From contig NC_049981.1 in the NCBI RefSeq assembly GCF_000003815.2, forward strand, positions 6,911,041 through 6,975,040: a stretch of DNA of 64,000 nucleotides, read 5' to 3'. The stretch comes from Branchiostoma floridae. Lineage: Eukaryota > Chordata > Leptocardii > Amphioxiformes > Branchiostomatidae. Both the position numbers and the translations under genes were made by a program. A model generated the notes under the pieces. It worked only from the letters and a program-made list of their open reading frames with translations. It did not search any database and was not told where the DNA came from. Below, piece by piece: positions 541 to 54,568 of the stretch (position 1 is the stretch's first letter; every line of letters begins with the position of its first letter).

Positions 541-3500
541 CTAAAAAGACAAACATATATTTTACAATACTTTGCATAGCATTGCGTAGACATTCTTTTT
601 ACATCAGCTGTCTTTGGCAGTATCGCAAGATAAACATGGAAGTTCATTTTTGTTCATGTAGTAATCATAGTACAATGCAGAACTTTCTTACAATACAAAG
701 GAATGCTCAAATCAAATTCACCGTCTCGGTCCAGAAGTCATCACTGAGCAGAGACGGAGGGAGTTACAAACTTCCTAGCACATTTGACCAGTTGCTGACG
801 TCACGTGTTAATAAGATCACATGTGTCTGTTACTCTCGCACGTTAACATCCTGGAGTGATTGTTCAGTATTGATCCTAATAAAGGCGCCAGTGGTCGGCG
901 AAAAATTTATCTGTGTATGCCTTTGTGTTAGAAGAAAGTTCAGCAATGACCTAGTGTCGTCGCATATCAACTCGGGGAGCTTAGATTGCTTTTCGCCACT
1001 CATCCATGTCCTCCTTCTGCGCTATTTTTCTAAACTTGTCTGTGGCTATGCCCATTTTTTTTCCATTGGTCTATTTTGCATGAAAAGTACTGTTCAATGT
1101 TGAGGGATGTGTTAATACCAAGAAGCGTGAAGAAGCCGCGGACTTATGCGTTAGACTTGGTCTGCGATATTTCTATATGTATATGTATTATTTTTTGTCT
1201 TCTGGTGACCTGTACTTAGCTCGGTTGGGCTGAAATATACAGTAAAGGTCTTGATTCATTCATATATCTTATATTCGTCATATATCCTACCACAGTATAG
1301 GAAAGCATATCAAAACAACTTATTTTCGGTCAAACAGAACTTCTCTGTGCATCCCTAACTAATGGTGGCAGCAAGCCTGTTCCAATATGAAGGTTCCACA
1401 CAAGAGTGTAACAGTGCGAAAACTTGTTCTTTCATCCCTTTTCGCCAAAGTACCTTCTCTCTACACTTCTCTATACATATATACTTATTTAGGTATCAAG
1501 CTAAGAAAGTTCTTTAAGGGCTGAGCTTTAAGGAAGTCCATAGCAGGTAAACAAAATATAGGCACAGGGGTAATACAGGTGAATGGAACTGCACCGATCC
1601 TTATTTGAGTCAACTTAATCATGTTTTCTTTTACCCAACCGTGCGAAAATTGATTAATGGTTGTCGCACCTCCCAATTGTCCCGCTTCAATCGAATCAAT
1701 AAAGGTCACAGGTCACTATTCCCCCAGCTGCCTCAATCACGGAAATGATCGGATGTGATTCGGTTATTCCTGCGGCATATGGACCTCTGTAGGTTTGTTT
1801 TGGGACAAGAATTTGATTTTATGGAAAACATTTGTCAACTTATCGATTTGGAACTAAACTCGGCACAAAAAAGTTTGTAATGTCGAATTTAGTGGTCATA
1901 TTTCCGTTTTTTCTGCATCTATTTCAACATGCTGTATATCAATATAGAGCGTGAGTGATTTTCTTTCCGATGGTATCAAATTCATTATGTTGTAAGCTGA
2001 TGGAATTAGCACAATGCCTACTTACGTGGGTGGGTCAAACAAAACATTTGCCCCAATTTCCCTGCTTTTGTTCAACACCGAATCGTCCGGTTAGTTTTGC
2101 TGCAGGTGTCAATGATTCAATCAATCCTTTTCACGTAGTCAAGGGGTCAAGGGTCACGACCAGCAATGGCTGCCATCTTGGAGATCTCCCAGCACTGAGG
2201 AAGAATCTGGAGCAATCCTCAGCGGGGGAGTCCCAAATGGCTAGCCTCTCACCATTGCTGAATAGTGTAGATAGGGTTTGAAGTTATTTTATGTTCCTTT
2301 TTTGGTTTTTGTTTCATAGTCAGGTAAATTCCACCACAAACATCTGCTACAGTGTGCATACCCCCCTCCCACCCCCATTTGTTATTATGAGTTCCATGAC
2401 TTTTTCTTTTGTTTGCCCTCTGTTATTTTGACTAAATACTACAACGTGACCCTAGACCAAGTAACATCCAGTTGAGGTAGATCACTACCTTAGGCGTAGT
2501 AGAGTGCAACTCTTTGATACGGCAAGAGGGCGCATGTCAACATGGACAATGGCGGCCAGTGATCAGAAACAGGGAGTCCTGGGACCTGTGCCGATCTGCA
2601 TCGCGGGTTGAGGATAAGGATGAGACGGCAAAGGGCGGAGGTAGGTGCTATGCAGCTAACCTACGACGGCCACTGGACTATGTGAAGGAAAACACAGAAT
2701 GAAAACCATGCTGTAGGAGCTGCGACCACAGTATTTATTTAGCAACAGAAAAGTTATCATGGCAAACCAATACAACACTAGGGTTGAAGTCCCTAATCGA
2801 ACCCTGCCTGCGGAGCTAGATTCCCAGGAATCACAGGATGGCTTACCTCCAAATCTGCAAGGAAGGGGTAGGCTTGATTATAGCTCCAGCAGAGGGAATA
2901 GGATGGTGAACTGTAGATCCATAACAACAATATCAACACTGAATGTAAGGACAATCAGGGAGGCACAACGCAGGGAGGAACTGTCGACTAACTCGGCTTT
3001 ATATGACATTGATGCACTGGGAATACAGGAACATCGTATAGCACATGAGGAAGAGGTCCGGTATGAAAGCATACATGGCAACATGCTGATAACTATATCT
3101 GCAAGTAGAAATCGGTCTGGTGCAACTGTTGGAGGAGTGGGTATACTGCTAAGTCCCAAAGCGTACAACTCACTGGCAAAGGTGACTCCATTCAACGAGC
3201 GCATACTGATTGCAAACTTCCAGGGAAATCCAGCTACAACAATAATAGTTACGTATTGTCCCACCAATGTCGTAGATGAAGAAACTACAAACGAGCACTA
3301 TGACAGCCTTAGGAGAGCAATACAGTCTATCCCAGCACACAACCTGCTAATGGTTGTGTGAGACTTTAATGCTAGGATAGGATCTGAGGAGGCAAAGTAT
3401 ACTTTCCACAGCGAAACGAACAGAAATGGTAAGCTACTACTAGAGTTGTCAAAAGAGCAAGGTCTTATCATCTCCAGCACGCGTTTCCAGAAGAAAGCTG

Positions 3501-6500
3501 GGAAATTGTGGACTTACATGAGCCCAGGTGGAAACAGATACCAGTTGGATTACATATTGATCAGAAAGAAGTGGCAAAACAGCATGCTAAACGTGGAGGC
3601 GTATAACACATTTGCTAGTGTGGGCTCGGACCACAGAATAGTGTCAGCTCGAGTAAGGCTCAGTCTGAGGAAGAAGAAAAGTTTACCGAGGAGGAAGCAG
3701 TATGACTGGGGAGCTCTTAGGAGGAGTGAAGCTCTGCAGCAGCAATATGCTATAGAAGTACGCAACAGATTTCAACCCCTTCAGGAAGAAAATGAAACCG
3801 CGACAGAGCGATATGGGAGGTTTATAGCAGCAAATGAGGGAGCTGCGGAGAAAACAATCCCAATTAAGAAACGGGAAAAGACAGCAAAATACTCCAGTGA
3901 TCCAAGAGTGTCACAGGCTAGGGATGAGGTCAATAGAAGGTATGAAGTCTTTGTGGAGAACACACAAGAGAAGAACAGGCAAGAGCTTAAAAGAGCCAGA
4001 AGGAGACTTGAGGAAACATATACAAGGGTCGCAGAGGAAGATCTCTTACAAAAGATCCAGGAGATAGAAAGGACACACGAAAACAGCAAACATGGGCAGA
4101 GCTGGAAGCTGATAAATGAGATAACAAACAGGGAAGCGACAAAGAAAAGTCAGCTGGAAGGAAACTCACAGGAAGAACGTGTACAGAGCTGGTACAATCA
4201 CTTTAAAAACCTCCTTGGTAATCCCCCAGAAATAACATGCGAGGAAGAGGAAATTCCAACTATCTTGGGAGATCTCGGTATAAAGGAAGGCCCTTTTGAC
4301 ATTGAAGAATATGAAATGGCAAGGAAATCACTGGTGGAAGGGAAAAGTAGTGGTGAGGATGGAATACCACCTGAGGTGTTGAAAAGATGCAAGGACCTCG
4401 ACGAGATTATCCTTGATTTCTGTAACAAGGCACTGCTGGAAGGGGAAAAGCCAGAGCAATGGAGCACTCTAAATATTGTACCCATACCCAAAGCTGGGAA
4501 CCTCAGACTCACAGAGAACTACCGCGGCATTAGCTTGAGCTCTATTGTTGCCAAGACATACAACAGAATGATCCTGAACAGAATAAGACCAGTACTGGAT
4601 AAACACCTGAGGCGGAACCAAAACGGATTCAGGGTGGGGAGGTCTACGGTAGGGCACATTCTTGCAATTCGTAGGCTTATCGAAGGCATCAAGTCATATA
4701 ATTTAACTGCAATAATTACATTTATAGACTTCAAGAAAGCCTTCGATACTATTCACAGAGGCAAGATGCTGAAGATTCTCAGGGCATATGGTATACCTGA
4801 ACAGCTAGTGGAAGCCATAGCCAGCATGTACAAGGACACAAAGGCAAAAGTCATCTCCCCTGATGGTGAAACCGAGCTTTTTGAGTTGTATGCTGGGGTG
4901 CTGCAAGGGGATACACTCGCTCCATATCTGTTTGTGATTGTCCTTGACTACGCACTAAGGACGGCTGTGGAGGGTAGGGAGGAAGAACTTGGTCTGCAAG
5001 TAGAGAGGAGGAGAAGCAGAAGGATTGGCCCAAAGGTAGTCACTGACATGGATTTCGCTGATGACATAGCGCTGCTATCAGAGGCAATCCAGCAAGCACA
5101 GGAACTGCTTGGGTGTGTGGAGAGTTCTGTGGGCAAGGTTGGACTCCGCATGAATGCTGGGAAAACTAAGTACATGACTTTCAACATACCGACCCCATAC
5201 TGCCTCAAAACAGGTGATGGGTGTACCCTAGAGGAGGTAAAGGATTTTAAATACCTGGGGTCCAGAATGGAGAGTTCAGCAAAGGACATAACTGCAAGAA
5301 AAGCAGCAGCCTGGCTTGCCTGCAACAAGTTAAAGAAGATCTGGAGATCAAACCTCTCACGTGAACTGAAAGTGAGGCTCTTCCTCTCGACTGTCGAATC
5401 GGTACTCCTGTATGGGTGCGAGTCGTGGACACTCACCACAAAGCTGGAAAAGCAGTTGGACGGATGTTATACGAGGTTGCTGAGAACTGCTCTCAACGTC
5501 CACTGGTCACAGCATATCACTAACAAGGACTTGTATGCTGGCATACCAAAGCTGTCCGACAAGATTCGAACTAGGAGATTAAAGTTTGCGGGACACTGCC
5601 TTAGGAGCAAGGAAATAGTTGCTGACCTGGTACTCTGGACGCCCAGGCATGGTAAGAGGAGGCCAGGTAGGCCGACAGCAACATACTTAGACATGCTCAA
5701 GAAAGACACTGGCCTTGGAGTTGACAACCTACATCAAGCAATGACGGACAGAGACATATGGAATGCTATCATCGCTCGAGACCAGAAGGACTCGTCTTAA
5801 GCAAGCAAGCTTTTCACGTATCAACATCCAAAAACACACTTGATAACGTCGATAAAAGAGCTACAATATGGTACAGTGCTCTTATGTACAATTGTCGAAA
5901 GTTTCTGAGTGGGTTTTTAAACCAAAATGAATGAATTTGTCGTATCACGAACACATATGTGTGTGTGGCTTTGTGTTTACATTGCATGGCCGGTAAACTG
6001 CCTCATGGCGGAAAAAACCAGGTTTGTAGTGAGGAAAACCAGCTGCAGATCCGGACAGCTTTATTTGAACAATTTCCACTGCCACTGCTTATAATTTTTG
6101 ATGAAAAAACTGACGTGAAGAGCCTTTTCCATTGGATCAAGTTCAAGGTCAGGATTCGAACTCAGACTCTCTGGGGTGTGAGCCAACTACCCTAACCACA
6201 AGGTCACCGCGACACCATATTGCCAACAGTAAACAGATTTCAGCACTGCAAGATCGTCATAGGGACAGCCTAAACTTATTTCGGTCCTTTATGGCTTCTG
6301 AGGTCAAGTGGGAAAATGGATGAGTGGCTCACACCCTTGAAAATGATCGTGGATCTCTTGAGAACATCATCCCAGAATACAAACGATGTGTCCCTGCTTC
6401 ATCTATCATATACACGTCTCTATGACTCTTGAGAAACGACCTTGTCCGTGCTTTCTGAAATGTACATTCGAGCCGCGGCCCATTAACTTCATTCATAACT

Positions 6501-44136: not shown

Positions 44137-44167
44137 ATGGAGGACCCGTCGGTCCGCGAGAGCAAGG
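44137..44167 (+). CDS. Chimera exon 1 (start)
   Basis: Encodes [10 protein letters not shown] plus one base. An in-frame TGA lies 36 nt upstream (44101-44103), and the donor is AAGG|GTAACC. Joining to exon 2 restores Gly-Met in the only frame that gives the PPSY segment. Confidence 0.65.
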
Positions 44168-47100
44168 GTAACCAAACCACGTATTTTTTTCAAAACTTGA
44201 TAGGAATTTTCGTTGATTTAGGTTGATTTAGAGAAACTATATTTTCACGTAACTAACGTAACATTGAATAGCACATGCAAAGCTTAAGGTATACACAAAT
44301 TTACATCGGGGCACTCCAGCCGTCACTGAACAGAGACGGTGGCTGTTATTTTAAACTTCTTGGCATGTTTGACCAATTGCTGACGTCACGCATCTGCAAG
44401 ATCACGTGTTAATACGATCACGTTTTAACACGGTACGGATGGGGTTTAAATCTCATGTGTGTTTTATTTTTCACCAAGATTACTATTTCGCAACTTTTAC
44501 CTGAAATTTGCTTCTTCAATCAGGAATGCAAGGCCAAATTGCGACAGCGCCCCCTTCCTATGAAGAAGCAACTGCAGCCATCCAAATGCAAAACCTGACA
44601 CTCGGCGTCGGTAAGTTTTTTAAACCCATGTCATACGCCTCCATCAAGCTTTTCAGTTCAGTTCAGTTCGTCCTCAATTCTACCAAGCTTTTACCACTTT
44701 ATAACAGGCAGTGTTCTTTACTGAACGTAGATTTGTATTTAAAACTTGTATTTGCGGGTTCCTTTTCCACCTTTATATCATCATCCACTTACTTCCAAAT
44801 CTCAGGCGGTCTTCTTTATGAAGCGTCAAATTTGTATTTGATTTTTTTTTCTTTTTTTTTTTCTTTTAGTAAATATGGGTTTCTTTTCACACACACCCTC
44901 ACTCAGTTACATTTACGTGTACTTCCGAATCTCGCGAGACTTTCAAGCATTGTTAAGCTTTGACTCTAGTATACTATGACGTGGCGTGACTATGACGTCA
45001 GTTTTGCCCGCCATATTGGATGGTTAACGCTGTTGGAACTTTTGGTGACTCCTTACTTTTGGTGACTTGCATTATTGTTTTTATTGACCTAAGCGGTAAG
45101 AATTTTCTCTGATTATGCAACACAATTTTCTTCAAATCCTTCCTTTGGACGTCATTTACGACACGTTTGACTATCTTTGTATGGCAAAAAAAGTGGGGTA
45201 CTTTCTGAAACGGTACCCCGTACATCATGCTTCGAACTTTCCAGGTGTCCCCTCGGTACGCACCGTCAGAGCGACCGTTGTCCAGGCCTTCCCGGCTCAG
45301 GGTCCGGATTACCTGAAACTCAACACAGGGGACCAGGTACAGGTCATCACGCAGCACGTCAAGGGGATGGGAGGGGTCTGGGTGGCTGTTCACAGCGGCA
45401 AGGTGGGCAACAAATCTATTTTACATTTTCACCTTTTCTAAGAATACTAAACTACAGCCACACATATACTTGTGATCATCTCTACCACTTGGCCAAATTG
45501 TGGATGCATTTTCGGAGTCCCTTTAATTATTGTCCCCGTTGAGTCAAGCATAAAGAATCCTATTTATAGTGGCCAACAACCATTTTTTTCAAGGCCTTTT
45601 AGCTGTAAATTGATACTGTATACCACCGCAACTGTAAGTTGACACTGTATATCACTGTAGCTGTAACGTTATACATTTCATATGGCAAGTACTGACCATA
45701 GTAAAATCCCTTAGCTTGCACGTTTTTGCTTCTAAGGTGGGGAAAGTGAGCCCGGTGGGTCTCAAAGTCCACTATGAGCCGGTCGACCTTGTGCCAAAGC
45801 CACCAACTTCGAGGTAGGGCTTTGTTTATTTCTGGCTAGTTTGTGAGCTTGTTGATTTCCTAGTTGGGTCAATGTGCCTTTCGTGGTTTGAGAAATTTAA
45901 GGGCTGTGAATAAGTCGTCTACATGACTAGTGAACAACACAATGCTAAGTTTAACATATTTTTGTCAAAAAACAGTTACTCATTCAAGCAATTGGATATG
46001 ATTTTGGAAAAGGTCTGCAGCTTCAAATAGCAACCACTATATTTCGTTAGTGACATTGAGAAAAGCTGGTTGAATGGCGCTATATAATGTAGCTTTTATA
46101 ACGTATTTACCCCCTTGCAACATATTTACCCAATACTCACTCATTCACCCTTCATTCAATCCATTATATTCACTCGTTGCTCAGTCCGCAGGTTCAAACC
46201 CTGACTGCCCAGGCAGTACGACCACACACCCCGAGCGGACCTGGCCAGCTGACGCTCCAGATGTGGGAGGTAGTACAAGTGGTGGATCAGCCTCCTACAG
46301 GTCCCTGGGCAGTCGTGAGTGGAGATAAGCTTGGAATGGTCGATCCAGGGTGCCTCAAGATTATGCCGTGTCAACAGGCTTCACTAAGGGAACAACTTTA
46401 CAGGTACGGTCAAAACCTGTACTCGTGACCACCTCTACATAAGGACCACTTGTCCCTTGATATGCTGTGTACTAGTGACCAGCTGGTCATTGCAACTCTT
46501 TCAGGTTGTCTCTTTGGGTATTCAATTTCCTATTGACCGTAAGTTAAGCATGTGGCCACCTGTCCGTTATGAACAATTTCATGAGTGGCAACTCTATAGA
46601 CCGGTTTGTGAACGTAGACGAGAAAGCATTTTATCATCACCACTAGCAGCATCTAAGCAAAAGCCAGTCGTTTTGAACGATCTTTTCGATACGTGAATAC
46701 TTTATTGAGCTAACGTTGAATAGGATCATCAGTCACGTATGAATACAGATACTACAATATTTTTCAAAGAGTGACGGTTTTTTAAAGGTATAGAGACATG
46801 CCTTCAATTTTGATGTATTGTAGCACATCTTGTTCACGGAGGGACCTAGTCTCACGAGAGAGTTATGCTAATTAACATACATTGATATTCCAGGGACGGG
46901 AAGACAGGGCGGTGGATCTCAGACCTAAGGGGAAGAGGCCTGCACTCCCTACCCGGTGAGCTGTTCACCTTGTCCGAGACGAGCGAGCTGTACATCACGG
47001 ACAACCTGCTGACTGCCCTGCCTGATGCCCTCACGGGACTGCCCAACCTGCTGCGGCTTAGCGCGGGGAGGAACAAGCTCGGGGTCTTTCCAGAGGTCTG

Positions 47101-50100
47101 CTTTTGTATTTTTGTATCGATCGCATTTGTTAATGCTACACATGTGGATAAAAAATTTGCGCACCTAACGAAGGAAGATCTGTTCAAATACTTTATGTCA
47201 TCATCTAACGTTAACTACGATATACTGGAAAAACTCTGTAAGTTTGTCTACACATGCTTTAAGAAGAGAGAAGAAGCACGTACTTTGTAGTATATGTATA
47301 GTTTTCCGTTTACTCCCTTTATACCAATCTGACTGCATTTAGCTCCAATGGGGCATGAATATGCAATAAACTTCATTGTCATTGTTAAAGGGTATAAGAC
47401 ACCAATGACATCAAAATTAGAATTATTTGAAATTGCACTTCACCATCAAAGCATTGGTTCATAAAAAAAAACATTTGCACAAATATATACCATACTGATA
47501 TCGATGTAATTGATTATCAAACCAAATTTTACCTCTAGCTCTTGCAATTCTTTATTCTCGTCAGGTATTCAGAGTAAACGGTGACTTTTTCGGTCATTAC
47601 GTGACGATGAACCTCTACTGTTGATCCCTGTGGTTACGGAACCAATATTGACAGCATGTGTCGACAGAGTCTTGTTTTATTTTTTTTCACAGTGAAGAAA
47701 AATACACAAGCGAGATTGCTATCCACTACACCACCTTGCCAATGAAGGCTAGATATCCAGCCAGATACGCAAAGTAACCGTTACTTGCATTGACTGGATA
47801 TCTTTTTCTTGCTACTGCAGGTCGTGTTGAGGATGACGCGGTTGGAAAATCTGAACATTGGAGAGAATGACTTCTGCGGCGTCCCGAGAAACATCGGACA
47901 TCTTCAAAACCTGAAGGAGCTCTGGCTGAAGAGCTTGAACCTTCAGGAGCTACCTGACGAGGTAAGCAAGGCGCAGGTGATATTTCGCATGCCAAATCAC
48001 TTTCACCGCATTACGAACAAAGAGCTCACTCTAGATTTCTCATGTTTCGGAAAGTATCCACCATCGTTCGCATACTTTCGGAGCAGTGTTTATTTTTCGA
48101 AGCAAAACAAAGAGCGCTGATTCGTGATTTTGACAATGGGGCAAGATTGTCCTTGCCGGTTCATAAATCCGTCTCCCGGCCAACTTCCTTCCCCGGTATT
48201 TAAAGAACCTTTTCCATGTTGAGAATCAGTCAGATCTCTCTCTCAAAAACAAAACGCCGCTCAGAATGTCTTTTTCTTGCTTTTGAACTGACGAGGACAA
48301 TGTCAATGTGGCACTGCACTCACGTCAGTAACTTATTTCAACAATGCCCGACACAAATTACAAACAATTTACGGCATGTGGAACTCGACCCACACGTCTC
48401 ATCACAATTTTCCCTTGTTTTTTCTCGCCACTTACCTACTGCTTTTCAAAAAGACGTTACATGGGAAGTTATGACGGCAATGGTTTGGAATTTTGAGGAT
48501 ATTGATAAAAGGCTTCAAACTACGAAGTTGTGCCTCAAAATCTGAGTTGTGCTTATTACATCTGGGTGAGGCTGAGAATTTTTTTATTGATCACCCCTCG
48601 TATGTAATTTTCTTCTATATATCCACAGCTCTGCCTCCTACAAAATCTGGAACTCCTGCACCTCGGGTGGAACAACCTGACCAGACTGCCAGGCAACTTC
48701 GCCCAACTGTCCTCGCTCAACAAGCTCCTGATGCAGCACAACCGCTTCCAACAGTTTCCGGAGCAGGTGTTTGTTACCTCCATGAAATGTCATGGAATGG
48801 AGGTTATATTTTCTGTTATGTGTCTCTGTCTGTGTAGAAGATTCCTCAAGAACGGCTGGATGGATTGGTTTCATACTTGTTGTGTTGGTGGGGTGTGACG
48901 AAAGCTCGAATTGATGAGATTTTGGGTGCCATATCTGTCGTTATGATCAATGTAATAATATCAGAAATCACACTGCTATATATTGGAACAGGCATGGTGG
49001 TTTCCCTCTTTGTTAATCACCTTATCTCCAAGCAGATGGTGAGGTGATTTGTTTCGCCAGTGATAGCCATGAACATATGTTGTTGTTTTTTTGGATCAGT
49101 TGACAACAACTGTTTGGGGGAAACGATAGCCTCGACCCAAGAACGGCTGGGTGAATTGGTTTCATACTTGATGTGTTGGTGGGGTGTGATGATAGCTTGA
49201 AGTGATTAGATTTTGGGCCCCGTATCTGTCGTTATGATCGATGTAATAATATAAGAAATCACCCCTATATTTGCGATATACAGTTGACATCGTAGAACAT
49301 CTGTTTGGGGGAACCAGACAGTTTTGAAAGTGATAACAAATTGTATTTATGTACTTGTGCTTTTAGGGACATGATGTATTATATTTCTTTTGTGCTGTTA
49401 GATGTTATGTGGTCCACCTTGCGTCACGCTGAAGTTTTGTTAGTATGTACTCGGTTTTATTATATATCTATTATGTGGATGTGTTTGGACTTACCTTATC
49501 TGAACAGTTGTCATCATCAACAAACATAAAATCGACAAAAACACTCAATATTTCATGGTGGTATGAGGTCGCCGAACTCTAGTTTTTTCTTCTTCTTCTT
49601 TCCTACTTCCTTGTCTCTTGAAGAAGAAGATTATTGGCATGTGTTTGTAACAGCAAAAGTGACCGCGTACAAATAAACGAAGGGAAATAAAGGAAAACTG
49701 CTAAGGAACATAACTGATTCTGTGTCTGTGTGTGCGTGAAAAGGGAAAGACAAGTGAATTTACTGGGTTACAAATACAAAATAATAAAAAATGTATCAAC
49801 ATACACATGTTTGCTTGTAACAGTTGTATTGCTTACGGTACATCACACCAAGTTTGTACTCCCGGATATTTACAAACTCCATATATGAACTATATTCATT
49901 TGATCCACTCACGCGCACCTACTCTTTTCAACCAAGTATGGTGGTTTCTTAACATGCTTTAGGAGTGGTTCTCCTCCAACACGGCACCTCCATTTAAGGT
50001 TCTCTCCCTATCTGACGCTATTCTAGTGAGCAAAATGGTGTGAATGGTGGTTCATTTCAGGGATTCAAATTTACTTCTGGTAATACCTACAAGTTCTGAG

Positions 50101-52299
50101 TCATCAACACTAACCAAACGGCCATCTTGCATCCAGGTGTGCTTCCTCGCCTCCCTCCGGGAGCTGTACCTGGACCAGGGGACAGGAGAGAAGTTCACGG
50201 TCATCCCGGACAGCATCGGCAACCTGAGGAAACTCAGGGTCATGGTACTGGACAACAACGCTCTGACGTCACTTCCGACCACGGTTGGTATCTTTGCCTA
50301 CTTGTTGGTTTGTATTAGAGAACTGTAATCTACCTTTACTTTTGGTGTTACACAAAGGTATGAAAGGGTTGATCAACGTATACCGAGATGGAACCATATC
50401 CTGGATTCATTGACATATTAGTATATCTGTAGAACTCCTTAAACAAAGGGGCCTTTTGCTTAGAATTAACTAATATCTACCAGGTTGACTCAAACAAGTT
50501 GTAGAAATCGGCAAAATACAAAATAGGATGTAAGGTAGACCATTAGAAAAGACACTTAACTTGCCACCTAACTTAAAAGCGTCCTTATAATTAGTCCTCA
50601 GAGTACTGCAACAACTAGACCAGCATCATGGCTTCGGTCGCCAAACCGGGACCCGACCGGGATGTTTGTGGAAACCAAAAGATAGAAATGTATACGCAAA
50701 ATAATATTCTTTTCACGTCTTGGGTAGTTTGGGGTTTTTTATATCAAACATTCCGTTCCCGAAAACTGCCCGGCCGGGCCCCGGTTTGGAAGTGTGACGT
50801 AGTCCCAATTGTGCTGGTGCTTGTAAGGTATGTAGCCCCGACCGGGGTCCGATCTGGTCCAAACATTCAGTGAGAGCTGCACGCCCGAAAGATCCCGAAA
50901 GCCCCCCCCCCCCCCCCGTTATCTCAGATAACGCAAACGACACTGAAGCCGACAAGCCCCAAGCACAAGTGCCCCATGACTGTCAAGACATCCTCGACGA
51001 CGACGAGACCACACCCAGCGGCGTGTACATGGTGTATCCAAGGGACAACCTGGGCGGCTTCCTGGTCTTCTGTGATATGGACACGGACGGAGGGGGATGG
51101 ACGGTAAGTCTGGTCACTTTACTGTTACAAATGTGAGATACGGCTACATTTGTGTATGTCATTGTTCTGATGTTGAGATGTTTGCTTTTTTCTGGCTATC
51201 AGCGTTTTCTTGCTCTTGAAGTTGTTCCAGAAACGCCAAGACGGAACAGTGGACTTCTTTCGGGACTGGGCAGACTACAAGACCGGCTTCCCTTCCAACC
51301 TGAACGGCGAGTTCTGGCTGGGGAACGACAAGCTGTACCGCCTGGCCGTGCAGAAAGTCTACCAGCTCAGGGTGGATATGGAGGATGTGGAGGGGAACAC
51401 GGCGTACGCGGCTTACAGCACGTTTGCCATCTCGCCTGAATCCCAGAACTACAAACTCCACATCGGGACTTACACCGGTACTGCAGGTGAGGGAGTTGAC
51501 AGTTAAAATCTTGAAATGGTATTGTTCCGACATGTTGACAATGTATCATATGGTTCTCCCTCTGAGTTGAATTTGAACGTGTCGCGTAGATTCGTGAAAA
51601 TAGATATGGTAGATTAATGTCTCTAAAATTTGATCAATACATACATACATACATACATACATACGTAGTCATACTCTATCGAGTTGTAGCATTAGCATAC
51701 TTTCGCTTCCAGTGTAATCTATTGTATCAATGTTCACGTTAAAATCTCTGTTTTCCATATGCGCGTACCAAATAAGTGAGGAATACTTTGGGTATTGTGA
51801 AGTACGCATGAAATTGGGATACGATATGCAATTGCTTACAAAAATATGAACACCGGAGCCTAGAACTGAAAATCATAGCGACACAGAAACAAAAAGGAAG
51901 TCAAAAGATACGCATGGTCAACAGGTCATAGTTTATTTCAGCTTCTAAACATGTACATCTCAAAACAAAGGATGATCTTAAAGATTGATAATCCAAGCCA
52001 CGTGCATTTCTGTTGTTCGGATCTAAATGTTTGTTTTTGTCACAGGGGATAGCCTGTCGTTACATGACGGGAAACCATTCAGTACAAAGGACAGAGACAA
52101 CGACGAGAGCTCTTCCGGAAGCTGTGCTCAGTCGATCAAAGGTGCGTGGTGGTACGGTAATTGCCACCACTCCAACCTGAACGGGCTGTACCACCTGGGT
52201 ACTCATGACAGTCACGGTGACGGCGTCAACTGGTACCACTGGAAGGGTTACAAATACTCCTTGAAGCGCACGGAGATGAAAATCCGGCCAACTCCGTAA
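44137..52299 (+). CDS. SH3-like / leucine-rich repeat / fibrinogen C-terminal domain chimeric protein, 12 exons
   Basis: Exons 44137-44167, 44524-44610, 45245-45402, 45737-45813, 46185-46403, 46894-47095, 47821-47961, 48629-48766, 50137-50287, 50928-51103, 51222-51486 and 52046-52299 sum to 1,899 nt (632 residues) with every junction in phase. Order: PPSY motif (about residue 20-25); SH3-like domain 43-110 ([24 protein letters not shown]); second SH3-like segment 122-175 ([29 protein letters not shown]); leucine-rich repeats 195-400 of the short intracellular-type 23-residue class (LxxLPxxLxxLxxLxxL); fibrinogen C-terminal domain 417-629 with GVYMVYP, GGGWT, TKDRDND calcium loop and [16 protein letters not shown]. 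Fibrinogen-related domains are normally secreted carbohydrate-binding modules, yet no signal peptide is visible. The exon 9-10 join uses donor G|GTATCT, and the alternative is two adjacent genes. An in-frame TGA upstream of the ATG supports the start. Confidence 0.7.
44305..44430 (+). repeat. Interspersed repeat family R1, copy 2
   Basis: Same-orientation match to 720-860 (CACTGAACAGAGACGG, TTTGACCAATTGCTGACGTC, GATCACGTGTTAATACGATC). Lies in intron 1 of the chimera, just upstream of exon 2. Confidence 0.55.
44524..44610 (+). CDS. Chimera exon 2 (PPxY segment)
   Basis: Acceptor CTTCAATCAG, donor GTCG|GTAAGT. Encodes [19 protein letters not shown] then [14 protein letters not shown] fits the WW-domain ligand consensus PPxY. 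Confidence 0.75.
45245..45402 (+). CDS. Chimera exon 3 (SH3-like domain, first part)
   Basis: Acceptor ACTTTCCAG, donor CAAG|GTGGGC. Encodes [32 protein letters not shown] and [10 protein letters not shown]: the N-terminal strands, the n-Src-like loop and the conserved Trp of an SH3 fold. Confidence 0.8.
45737..45813 (+). CDS. Chimera exon 4 (SH3-like domain, end)
   Basis: Acceptor GCTTCTAAG, donor CGAG|GTAGGG. Encodes [19 protein letters not shown], the last SH3 strands (G.V.P..Y.EP), then a Pro-rich linker. Confidence 0.78.
46185..46403 (+). CDS. Chimera exon 5 (second SH3-like segment)
   Basis: Phase requires the acceptor TGCTCAG at 46178-46184 rather than CCGCAG at 46186-46191, because the latter gives a stop after four codons. 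Encodes [33 protein letters not shown] and a tail REQLYR. The donor is ACAG|GTACGG. Confidence 0.75.
46894..47095 (+). CDS. Chimera exon 6 (start of leucine-rich repeats)
   Basis: Acceptor GATATTCCAG; donor GAG|GTCTGC. Encodes [18 protein letters not shown], then [19 protein letters not shown] and [10 protein letters not shown], about two and a half repeats. Confidence 0.85.
47821..47961 (+). CDS. Chimera exon 7 (leucine-rich repeats)
   Basis: A 47-codon exon in phase 0 at both ends. Encodes [16 protein letters not shown] and [19 protein letters not shown], two 23-residue repeats. Acceptor CTACTGCAG, donor GAG|GTAAGC. Confidence 0.88.
48629..48766 (+). CDS. Chimera exon 8 (leucine-rich repeats)
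   Basis: A 46-codon exon in phase 0 at both ends, with the same two-repeat layout as exon 7. Encodes [18 protein letters not shown] and [19 protein letters not shown]. Acceptor ATATCCACAG, donor CAG|GTGTTT. Confidence 0.87.
48770..49300 (+). repeat. Intronic repeat with ~295-bp-spaced direct copies
   Basis: 48845-49010 and 49137-49290 share GAACGGCTGG(A/G)T, TTGGTTTCATACTTG, GTGTTGGTGGGGTGTGA, GATTTTGGG and TATCTGTCGTTATGATC. The same family appears at 25425-25560. Confidence 0.65.
49301..50136. other. Rest of chimera intron 8, with a SINE fragment
   Basis: Non-coding. 49955-50035 (GGTTCTCCTCCAACACGGCA, CCTCCATTTAA) is a degenerate copy of the SINE at 63205-63692. No extra leucine-rich-repeat exon was found. 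Confidence 0.45.
50137..50287 (+). CDS. Chimera exon 9 (last leucine-rich repeats)
   Basis: Encodes [35 protein letters not shown] and ALTSLPTTV. The donor G|GTATCT at 50288 gives phase 1, matching exon 10. Reading through instead ends after 15 more codons (stop at 50326-50328), which would be the last exon if the fibrinogen part is a separate gene. Confidence 0.78.
50641..50789. mobile_element. Short TIR element (MITE) in chimera intron 9
   Basis: Left CCAAACCGGGACCCGACCGG and right (reverse complement) CCAAACCGGGGCCCGGCCGG are inverted. A related end lies at 7225-7247. Non-coding, about 150 bp. Confidence 0.6.
50928..51103 (+). CDS. Chimera exon 10 (linker and start of fibrinogen domain)
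   Basis: Acceptor GTTATCTCAG after a poly-C run, donor ACG|GTAAGT. Encodes an acidic linker, then [23 protein letters not shown] and [12 protein letters not shown], the signature first half of a fibrinogen C-terminal domain. Confidence 0.85.
51222..51486 (+). CDS. Chimera exon 11 (fibrinogen domain)
   Basis: Acceptor CTCTTGAAG, donor GCAG|GTGAGG. Encodes [35 protein letters not shown] and [13 protein letters not shown], all family landmarks. Confidence 0.92.
51636..51666. repeat. (ATAC)n microsatellite
   Basis: About eight uninterrupted tetranucleotide units in intron 11 of the chimera. Confidence 0.85.
52046..52299 (+). CDS. Chimera exon 12 (fibrinogen domain, stop)
   Basis: Acceptor TTGTCACAG. 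Encodes [50 protein letters not shown] and [11 protein letters not shown], ending at TAA. The DRDND calcium loop and both late Cys residues are present. Candidate poly-A signals downstream are at 52565 (ATTAAA) and 53117 (AATAAA). Confidence 0.92.
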
Positions 52300-53284
52300 C
52301 TTCATACATTATATTCTATCGTTCATGCCACTGAAACAGATGTGAAAACGACAATATGTTACCTATTAATTTTATGATCGAGATTTAGATATTGAATGCT
52401 TACACATCATACCCTCCTTAACAAGAACTGTATTGTCAATTCCAGTGTTGTAAGATTTCTTTTAAGTTAAATCCTACACTTAGAGTAAAACATCAGAATT
52501 AGTCTTGAATTTCCTGTACAGAGAGATATAGTGTGAAATCTTTCATTACCACTGGGACTAAAAAATTAAATTTATCTCTAAATAAGGCAAAAAGTTCGTT
52601 TCCACGAATTCGAAATCTGTTTTGAATTCGGTTTTAGATACTTTAAATGATAATAATAATGGATTGCGTATTGTGCTCATAGATAGAAGAATATTACATA
52701 GCACTGAATATCAATATTCCTTCATTCTCCTATTGTCACATATGATGTACGTAGTTATTTTTCTTTTGTCTGATGGAGTATTGGGATACATATCTTTCAA
52801 CAGTTTGATGCTAACTAGTTTCATTTGATTTTCTCTATGATGTATAATAGTTCTCGAGCTCTATAATTCACTGTATTAACAGTCATTGCCTGTGGTATTT
52901 GGTACATGTTCAAAGACGGTTATAACGAATGCTTGATAGAACTCTGATCTGTTTTAGTTGACCCCTTTTCTATTATTTGTTTAATCATTTGTTAACAACA
53001 TTAGACATGTTGTGACTATTTTCTGTAATATAGGGCATTCTGTACTCATAGTACAATTTGCGACATTCGCCTTCAGTGTGATGACTAAAACTAACTACTG
53101 CCATAACTAAAATGATAATAAAAACACTGGCATGATCATGTTCTGTTGCAGATTTTCGTAATCGTAATAGTTCATATTCAGCAAATTCGTAACCTATTAT
53201 TACATTTAGCATTAACTTAGAGGTGCAAGATAATGCATTTCTAAGTAAGTTCTAGGAATTTAGGCCAAACGGACGCACACCATA
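52300..53284. other. 3' flank of the chimeric gene
   Basis: AT-rich, with candidate poly-A signals ATTAAA (52565-52570) and AATAAA (53117-53122). No other feature seen. Confidence 0.45.
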
Positions 53285-54107: not shown

Positions 54108-54568
54108 NNNNNNNNNNNNNNNNNNNNNNNNNNNNNNNNNNNNNNNNNNNNNNNNNNNNNNNNNNNNNNNNNNNNNNNNNNNNNNNNNNNNNNNNNNNNN
54201 NNNNNNNNNNNNNNNNNNNNNNNNNNNNNNNNNNNNNNNNNNNNNNNNNNNNNNNNNNNNNNNNNNNNNNNNNNNNNNNNNNNNNNNNNNNNNNNNNNNN
54301 NNNNNNNNNNNNNNNNNNNNNNNNNNNNNNNNNNNNNNNNNNNNNNNNNNNNNNNNNNNNNNNNNNNNNNNNNNNNNNNNNNNNNNNNNNNNNNNNNNNN
54401 NNNNNNNNNNNNNNNNNNNNNNNNNNNNNNNNNNNNNNNNNNNNNNNNNNNNNNNNNNNNNNNNNNNNNNNNNNNNNNNNNNNNNNNNNNNNNNNNNNNN
54501 NNNNNNNNNNNNNNNNNNNNNNNNNNNNNNNNNNNNNNNNNNNNNNNNNNNNNNNNNNNNNNNNNNNN
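54108..54568. other. Assembly gap (461 N)
   Basis: A run of N. Any frames drawn through it are artefacts. It lies between two copies of a long inverted-repeat family, which probably caused the gap. Confidence 0.99.

Follow-up and report, generated by a model that had tools for sequence, protein, structure and literature searches.

A probable gene fusion in Branchiostoma floridae joining an SH3 and leucine-rich repeat scaffold to the fibrinogen-related exons of a lectin family

Lancelets are known for a rapid recombination of protein domains. According to passages of PMC4284660, their domain-pair gain exceeds 10 per Myr, shuffled exons are biased to phase 1-1, and FBG is named as one of the receptor families whose evolution follows a pattern similar to that of lancelet TLRs. 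Hybrid immune genes of lancelets, many of them backed by recovered cDNA, are described in PMC2575513, the main text of which does not contain the words fibrinogen and SH3, and a passage of PMC12373286 refers to CARD-containing architectures that are unique to amphioxus among animals. Here we analyse a 64,000-nucleotide stretch of the Branchiostoma floridae genome (C3:6911041-6975040 of a 513-Mb assembly; the whole stretch is called the window, and positions given without a contig are counted within it), which carries a predicted gene for a PPxY motif, two SH3-like units, leucine-rich repeats (LRRs) and a fibrinogen-related domain (FReD). This is probably a young chimeric gene produced by genuine domain capture, the simplest form of which would be an in-frame fusion of an SH3-LRR gene with the FReD exons of a lectin. 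Extreme exon shuffling in lancelets is already known; what is new, and unusual, is this architecture, which joins an intracellular-type scaffold to a leaderless lectin. We found no SH3-LRR-FReD protein and no amphioxus CARD-SH3-LRR protein in the open-licence literature, though either may still be published.

The two halves of the predicted protein resemble different described families. Its LRRs are like the intracellular repeats of SHOC2 and LRRD1 (LRRD1 E=4.5e-61), with which they share the 23-residue LxxLP form, whereas the listed stretches matching SHOC2 and LRRD1 are confined to the LRRs. Among solved structures the FReD resembles the ficolins (Ficolin-1, E=2.3e-73); ficolins and FIBCD1 likewise have a FReD by sequence, but their collagen stalk or transmembrane part is absent from the window model.

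An initial annotation had proposed twelve exons that splice in frame into 1,899 nt, and we were able to rebuild this model exactly (632 aa, a single terminal stop, GT-AG at 11 of 11 introns). GC content at third codon positions is 0.50-1.00 across the twelve exons, and intron GC content is 0.36-0.44. Donor scores, here and below, come from an approximate splice-donor matrix. The parts of the model are as follows.

44137..44167, + strand: exon 1, a possible but uncertain start, with a weak donor (0.76 bits)
44524..44610, + strand: exon 2, with the PPSY (PPxY) motif, an alternative translation start at 44526, a phase-1 end and a donor of 4.9 bits
45245..45402, + strand: exon 3, first part of SH3-1, with a phase-1 start as in the paralogue described below (by eye from the paralogue DNA)
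45737..45813, + strand: exon 4, second part of SH3-1
46185..46403, + strand: exon 5, SH3-2
46894..47095, + strand: exon 6, first LRRs
47821..47961, + strand: exon 7, LRRs, phase 0-0
48629..48766, + strand: exon 8, LRRs, phase 0-0
50137..50287, + strand: exon 9, last LRRs, where homology to the CARD-SH3-SH3-LRR paralogue stops
50928..51103, + strand: exon 10, linker and FReD part 1, with a phase-1 acceptor
51222..51486, + strand: exon 11, FReD part 2
52046..52299, + strand: exon 12, FReD part 3 with the calcium loop, ligand pocket and stop codon
52300..53240, + strand: 3' flank, with pieces common to the sibling lectin genes at 52302-52502 and 53008-53240

The 3' flank contains poly(A)-type signals at 53117 (AATAAA) and 52565 (ATTAAA), and its second piece, 53008-53240, is matched more than once in the fetched lectin cluster and may be a dispersed repeat.

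The proposed order of PPxY, two SH3-like units, about eight LRRs and FReD holds to different degrees along the protein. Hidden Markov model searches of the spliced protein against Pfam gave strong matches to Fibrinogen_C (E=3.4e-79, 266 bits vs a cut-off of 22) and to the LRR families (LRR_14, 8.4e-16; LRR_8, 7e-15). The SH3 units are weak in Pfam: SH3-1 exceeds the SH3_2 cut-off by 0.1 bit in the full protein (E=1.5e-4, 21.9 vs 21.8 bits) and falls below it when cut out alone (18.3 bits), and SH3-2 alone is below it as well (12.0 bits, E=0.17). A profile built from four units, the two of the window and the two of the paralogue, nevertheless matches solved SH3 domains, NCF1 best (6.1e-5) and SH3PXD2A at 9.4e-5, so that both window units are SH3-like by profile. 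Counted by eye, there are nine LRR units, the last one incomplete.

To judge from sequence, the FReD exons are those of a lectin family whose members are apparently secreted. The genome holds at least 173 Fibrinogen_C matches, exon pieces counted (best 150 of 572 candidates), and the FReD segment of the window matches DNA on C3, C16, C14, C2 and elsewhere in 62 pieces, the window included (best 40 of 84 candidates). Sibling lectin genes (L009, L011-L014) form clusters at C3:10.58M / 11.03M and C16:5.64M. Per matched piece, the window FReD is 71-97% identical in protein to L009, L011, L012 and L013, a match that supports the FReD exons of the model; in coding DNA it shares 92-93% identity with L009, L012 and L013. 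Siblings and window gene alike have the FReD split over three exons, with introns that agree in position and phase, and the four siblings that were aligned have four cysteines each, as the window FReD does; unlike the window gene, they also possess a leader and coiled-coil-like exon. As seen by eye in L009, L012 and L013, this exon contains a hydrophobic leader, cysteines and a coiled-coil-like stretch, and ends near a phase-1 donor. Of its 20 genome matches none lies in the window, where a tblastn search for a remnant reached a best E of 2.0. Nine places, the window among them, match within the first 16 bases of the FReD cassette, and at seven of these starts the leader exon is matched further upstream, in the same orientation and at most 3.9 kb away; such a match is lacking at the window and at C2:1170547. 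In the 10 kb stretches fetched around the sibling lectins, no SH3 or LRR match was found at E<=1e-3. Exon 10 of the window has an in-frame 15-nt insertion (AQVPH, 50963-50977) in the linker just before the FReD, which is absent from the four aligned siblings; by eye, it holds a short inverted repeat.

Three further copies may be mentioned here. In L015 and L016 (C14:20.2M and 20.7M), homology to the FReD cassette begins precisely with the domain's first conserved Cys, and Cys-rich repeats are seen by eye upstream of the FReD in L015, perhaps another 5' partner of the same cassette. The L017 cassette is preceded by a leader/coiled-coil-like open reading frame (ORF), again by eye.

The 5' half has a single recognisable relative. 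Searching the genome with the PPxY-SH3-SH3 block gave eight matches at E<=10, four of which are the window's own exons and three noise (E 0.86-7.15); the sole other locus above noise for the SH3-SH3 block is C3:12118008-12118460 (44% identity, E=1.7e-29). This locus lies about 5.2 Mb from the window, in a minus-strand gene at C3:12.116-12.120M that encodes a CARD (E=3.9e-12; two exons in our reading of the DNA) followed by SH3, SH3 and LRRs. We know of no other occurrence of this CARD-SH3-SH3-LRR architecture (C3:12116442-12119600). Paralogue and window gene have in common the SH3 pair, the first nine LRRs and, by eye, the same phase-1 intron before SH3-1, with 172 of 357 aligned residues identical (48%). 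Their alignment is gap-free at the exon 5/6, 6/7, 7/8 and 8/9 junctions, which lends support to the SH3-LRR exons of the model and, among them, to the weak donors of exons 6 and 8. The paralogue differs in having the CARD and, beyond the equivalent of exon 9, another 92 residues before its stop, which by eye form three further LRRs and a cap. Neither FReD nor PPxY was found there, within the 29 kb fetched around the locus and within 8 kb of 12118000, respectively.

Reciprocal searches in the window returned neither of the paralogue's distinctive ends. The best tblastn match of the paralogue CARD in the window had E=1.5, no CARD profile being run on the window. The LRR tail is absent by tblastn from downstream of exon 9 (from 50288) to 30 kb past the window, except for the unsearchable N gaps at 54108-54568, 70667-70766, 74745-75244 and 83305-83738, and none of 124 matches in a genome search fell within C3:6.911-7.005 Mb (best 150 of 1,111 candidates). 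Further LRR exons past exon 9 or past the FReD were likewise considered and rejected, there being no tblastn match in the window or in the 30 kb beyond, the N gaps again excepted. Elsewhere in the genome, a dense array of LRR matches, dozens across about 570 kb, occupies contig C231:13599-584565.

The point at which the two halves meet can be placed within intron 9, which also contains a repeat that resembles a miniature inverted-repeat transposable element (MITE).

50919..50920, no strand: breakpoint, with window homology to L009, L012, L013 and L014b beginning at 50920
50641..50805, + strand: MITE-like dispersed repeat in intron 9, with inverted arms 50641-50689 and 50741-50789

The breakpoint is 8 bp before exon 10 and adjoins a poly-C run. 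Window homology to the second exon-10 copy of L011 also starts at 50920, and that to the other L011 copy at +51. The siblings' common DNA extends upstream of the cassette start: L012 and L013 align from -398 to +1497 (87.5%), L009 and L012 from -190, L009 and L013 from -202, and L012 and L014b from -108, and L011 has DNA of this upstream type in part. Downstream of the breakpoint, the homology of the window to the siblings continues in pieces to 52502 and resumes at 53008-53240. With relatives of both parents in the genome and a breakpoint at 50920, the domain shuffling that the initial annotation had suggested, between an intracellular-type SH3-LRR gene and a FReD, is borne out. The MITE-like element, about 115 bp from the breakpoint, has many genome copies (1,123 candidates, of which the best 40 were scored); among the intron 9 matches listed, all except the window itself lie within the element or a few bases beyond it.

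A breakpoint that sits at a homopolymer near a dispersed repeat could also reflect a junction that is non-functional or an artefact, either an accidental fusion in decay or a misjoin of the assembly where the poly-C run adjoins 50920. Broken sibling copies (a frameshift in L014b, a stop in L015) and the lone first-exon fragment without a leader match at C2:1170547 also count in favour of this explanation. We nevertheless hold it to be quite improbable: all twelve exons are open, the junction is free of N runs (the sole one in the window is at 54108-54568), the FReD copy differs from each of the four compared siblings (dS 0.15-0.19) and is thus not a misplaced copy of any of them, and it is constrained.

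Constraint on the FReD copy is seen in several ways. The ratio of non-synonymous to synonymous substitution rates (dN/dS) between the window and its siblings is 0.25 for L012 (95% bootstrap 0.12-0.46), 0.33 for L013 (0.17-0.72) and 0.47 for L009 (0.27-0.83). Against these same three genes, the FReD coding sequence shows gaps of 3 and 15 nt only, while intron 11 shows 9-11 gaps, of which 7/11, 9/10 and 8/9 are not multiples of three; judged by these alignments, the window's reading frame stayed constrained while introns gathered gaps. Considering only sites identical in all four siblings, we find nine synonymous and three non-synonymous differences in the window, counts that leave out the variable pocket. 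When polarised with the more distant outgroup copies L015 and L016, eight of the nine synonymous changes fall on the window branch (one via L016 alone, one via L015 alone) and the ninth on the siblings' side; of the three non-synonymous changes, one is assigned to the window branch, another stays undecided and the third lies in an unmappable junction codon. A proportion of 8/9 or 8/10 synonymous has P = 3e-5 to 1.6e-3, assuming that 21-30% of random changes are synonymous. The unpolarised synonymous to non-synonymous counts for the siblings are 1:4 (L009), 5:2 (L011a), 4:0 (L012) and 2:4 (L013), and the window copy is therefore not less constrained than they are.

The junction between exons 9 and 10 had been singled out beforehand as the weakest link of the model; the donor of exon 9 is weak, and that of exon 1 is weak as well. 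A phase-0 donor at 50284 (-1.1 bits) would match exons 6-8, and the phase-1 donor used in the model, 50288, lies four bases on. Because two of the five GTs from 50284 to the stop are phase 1 (a GT overlapping the stop codon left out), agreement of frame at this junction is on its own weak evidence. The acceptor of exon 10 is good, with 15/17 pyrimidines.

The weak exon 9 donor, and the fact that FReD exons are phase-1 modules placed after a leader exon in the siblings, would suit a locus with two transcription units, one being the SH3-LRR gene, with its end inside exon 9 or shortly after it (stop at 50328), and the other a transcript of its own that uses the FReD exons behind some unrelated first exon, which might be of the signal-peptide type. 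The initial annotation had itself named a signal-peptide exon just before 50928 as the finding that would speak for two genes. The absence of matches to the siblings' leader exon in the window answers this in part, for a leader of that type, and leaves room for an unrelated one. A search for a signal-peptide exon upstream of exon 10 by a hydrophobicity rule of our own gave one ORF, 45020-45095 in intron 2, with a hydrophobic stretch and a phase-1 donor. It lends the two-transcript explanation a candidate, but was rejected as it is at chance level: the window has two ORFs of this kind on its + strand and 21 on its - strand. Separately, the 45020-45095 ORF could replace exons 1-2 in frame. Moreover, a scan for 11 poly(A)-signal variants between 50328 and 50928 detected only AATACA at 50515, and the LRR part would end mid-solenoid. 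Two transcription units are, in our opinion, unlikely. A fusion is favoured since the leader exon and the LRR tail are both missing, the FReD is preserved and the acceptor is good.

Several points weigh against the fusion. The exon 9/10 join is a prediction from sequence alone; its donor scores -1.58 bits, which 20% of the GTs in the window equal, and since exons 6, 7 and 8 end in phase 0, the fusion required a phase shift of the donor. The dN/dS against L011a is 0.57, with an interval (0.37-1.06) whose upper limit passes 1. The constraint dates from the split from the siblings and could be older than the arrival of the copy here, and part of it could predate the move, had the copy existed elsewhere with a leader exon. 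Finally, the LRR solenoid would be without its C-cap, and the cytosol is an unusual place for a FReD that has two conserved disulfides.

If the fusion is nonetheless accepted, its history would most simply be the following. A duplicated lectin segment comprising the three FReD exons and the 3' flank would have landed behind exon 9 of a gene related to the CARD-SH3-SH3-LRR paralogue, arriving without the leader/coiled-coil exon and with its own phase-1 splice acceptor. The LRR gene would have shed its last repeats and cap, and splicing into the lectin exons would proceed from the phase-1 donor at 50288, four bases past the expected ancestral phase-0 site at 50284. At the 5' end, the PPxY exon sits where the paralogue has its CARD exons and would be joined at the same phase-1 intron. 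Splicing from exon 9 to exon 10, the direction and order of these events, and the location, ligand and signalling of the product are all inferred.

The FReD would bring a ligand pocket of its own. Positions of the ficolin/FIBCD1 acetyl pocket were taken from passages of PMC3088710 and PMC3908420; in M-ficolin the acetyl-binding S1 pocket consists of Phe274, Asp282, Cys283, His284, Tyr300, Ala301 and Tyr312. The window has I, N, C, H, H, G and Y, identical at three of the seven (Cys283, His284 and Tyr312) and changed at Phe274 (I), Asp282 (N), Tyr300 (H) and Ala301 (G). The sibling lectins depart from the M-ficolin pocket too, and positions 274 (I/F/A/H/Y) and 300 (H/G/T/N/R) differ in all five copies (window, L009, L011-L013). 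The four disulfide cysteines and the DRDND calcium motif are kept in the window FReD, although the loop exceeds that of Ficolin-1 by one residue. When the window is compared with its four siblings, the non-synonymous/synonymous ratio is 0.48-1.19 for exon 12 vs 0.11-0.34 for exons 10-11; between sibling pairs this contrast is inconstant, and is absent or reversed in three of six (L009/L013, 0.80 vs 0.83; L011a/L013, 0.72 vs 1.24; L012/L013, 0.31 vs 0.33). By its sequences, the lectin family looks like a diversifying recognition repertoire, to which the window copy would owe a non-standard pocket.

As the initial annotation had stated, no signal peptide is seen by eye in the model's N-terminus, and the product should therefore be cytosolic by prediction. 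It would be an SH3-LRR scaffold with the FReD as a new recognition end. PPxY motifs are recruiters of WW-domain ubiquitin ligases of the NEDD4 type, and the motif in exon 2 could act in this way. The earlier suggestion of a cytosolic glycan or PAMP (pathogen-associated molecular pattern) sensor is speculation, because the ficolin-type acetyl pocket is altered. We put forward only tentatively, and with more doubt than belief, that a ficolin-type FReD, from a lectin family whose ligand pocket varies between all copies compared, now serves a former CARD-family LRR scaffold as its recognition end within the cytosol, the pocket repertoire of secreted lectins being re-used for intracellular sensing via PPxY and WW-domain ubiquitin ligases.

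Far from this gene, window positions 2717-5797 carry ORFs like those of a non-LTR (long terminal repeat) retrotransposon, by eye, one endonuclease-like (214 aa) and one reverse-transcriptase-like (812 aa).

This locus makes a useful test case, being one event for which relatives of both parents are at hand, the breakpoint is placed and there are signs of constraint. The fusion would cross the usual divide between the inside and the outside of the cell, and thereby raises the question of whether the fold of an extracellular lectin could function in the cytosol or the product is exported by other means.

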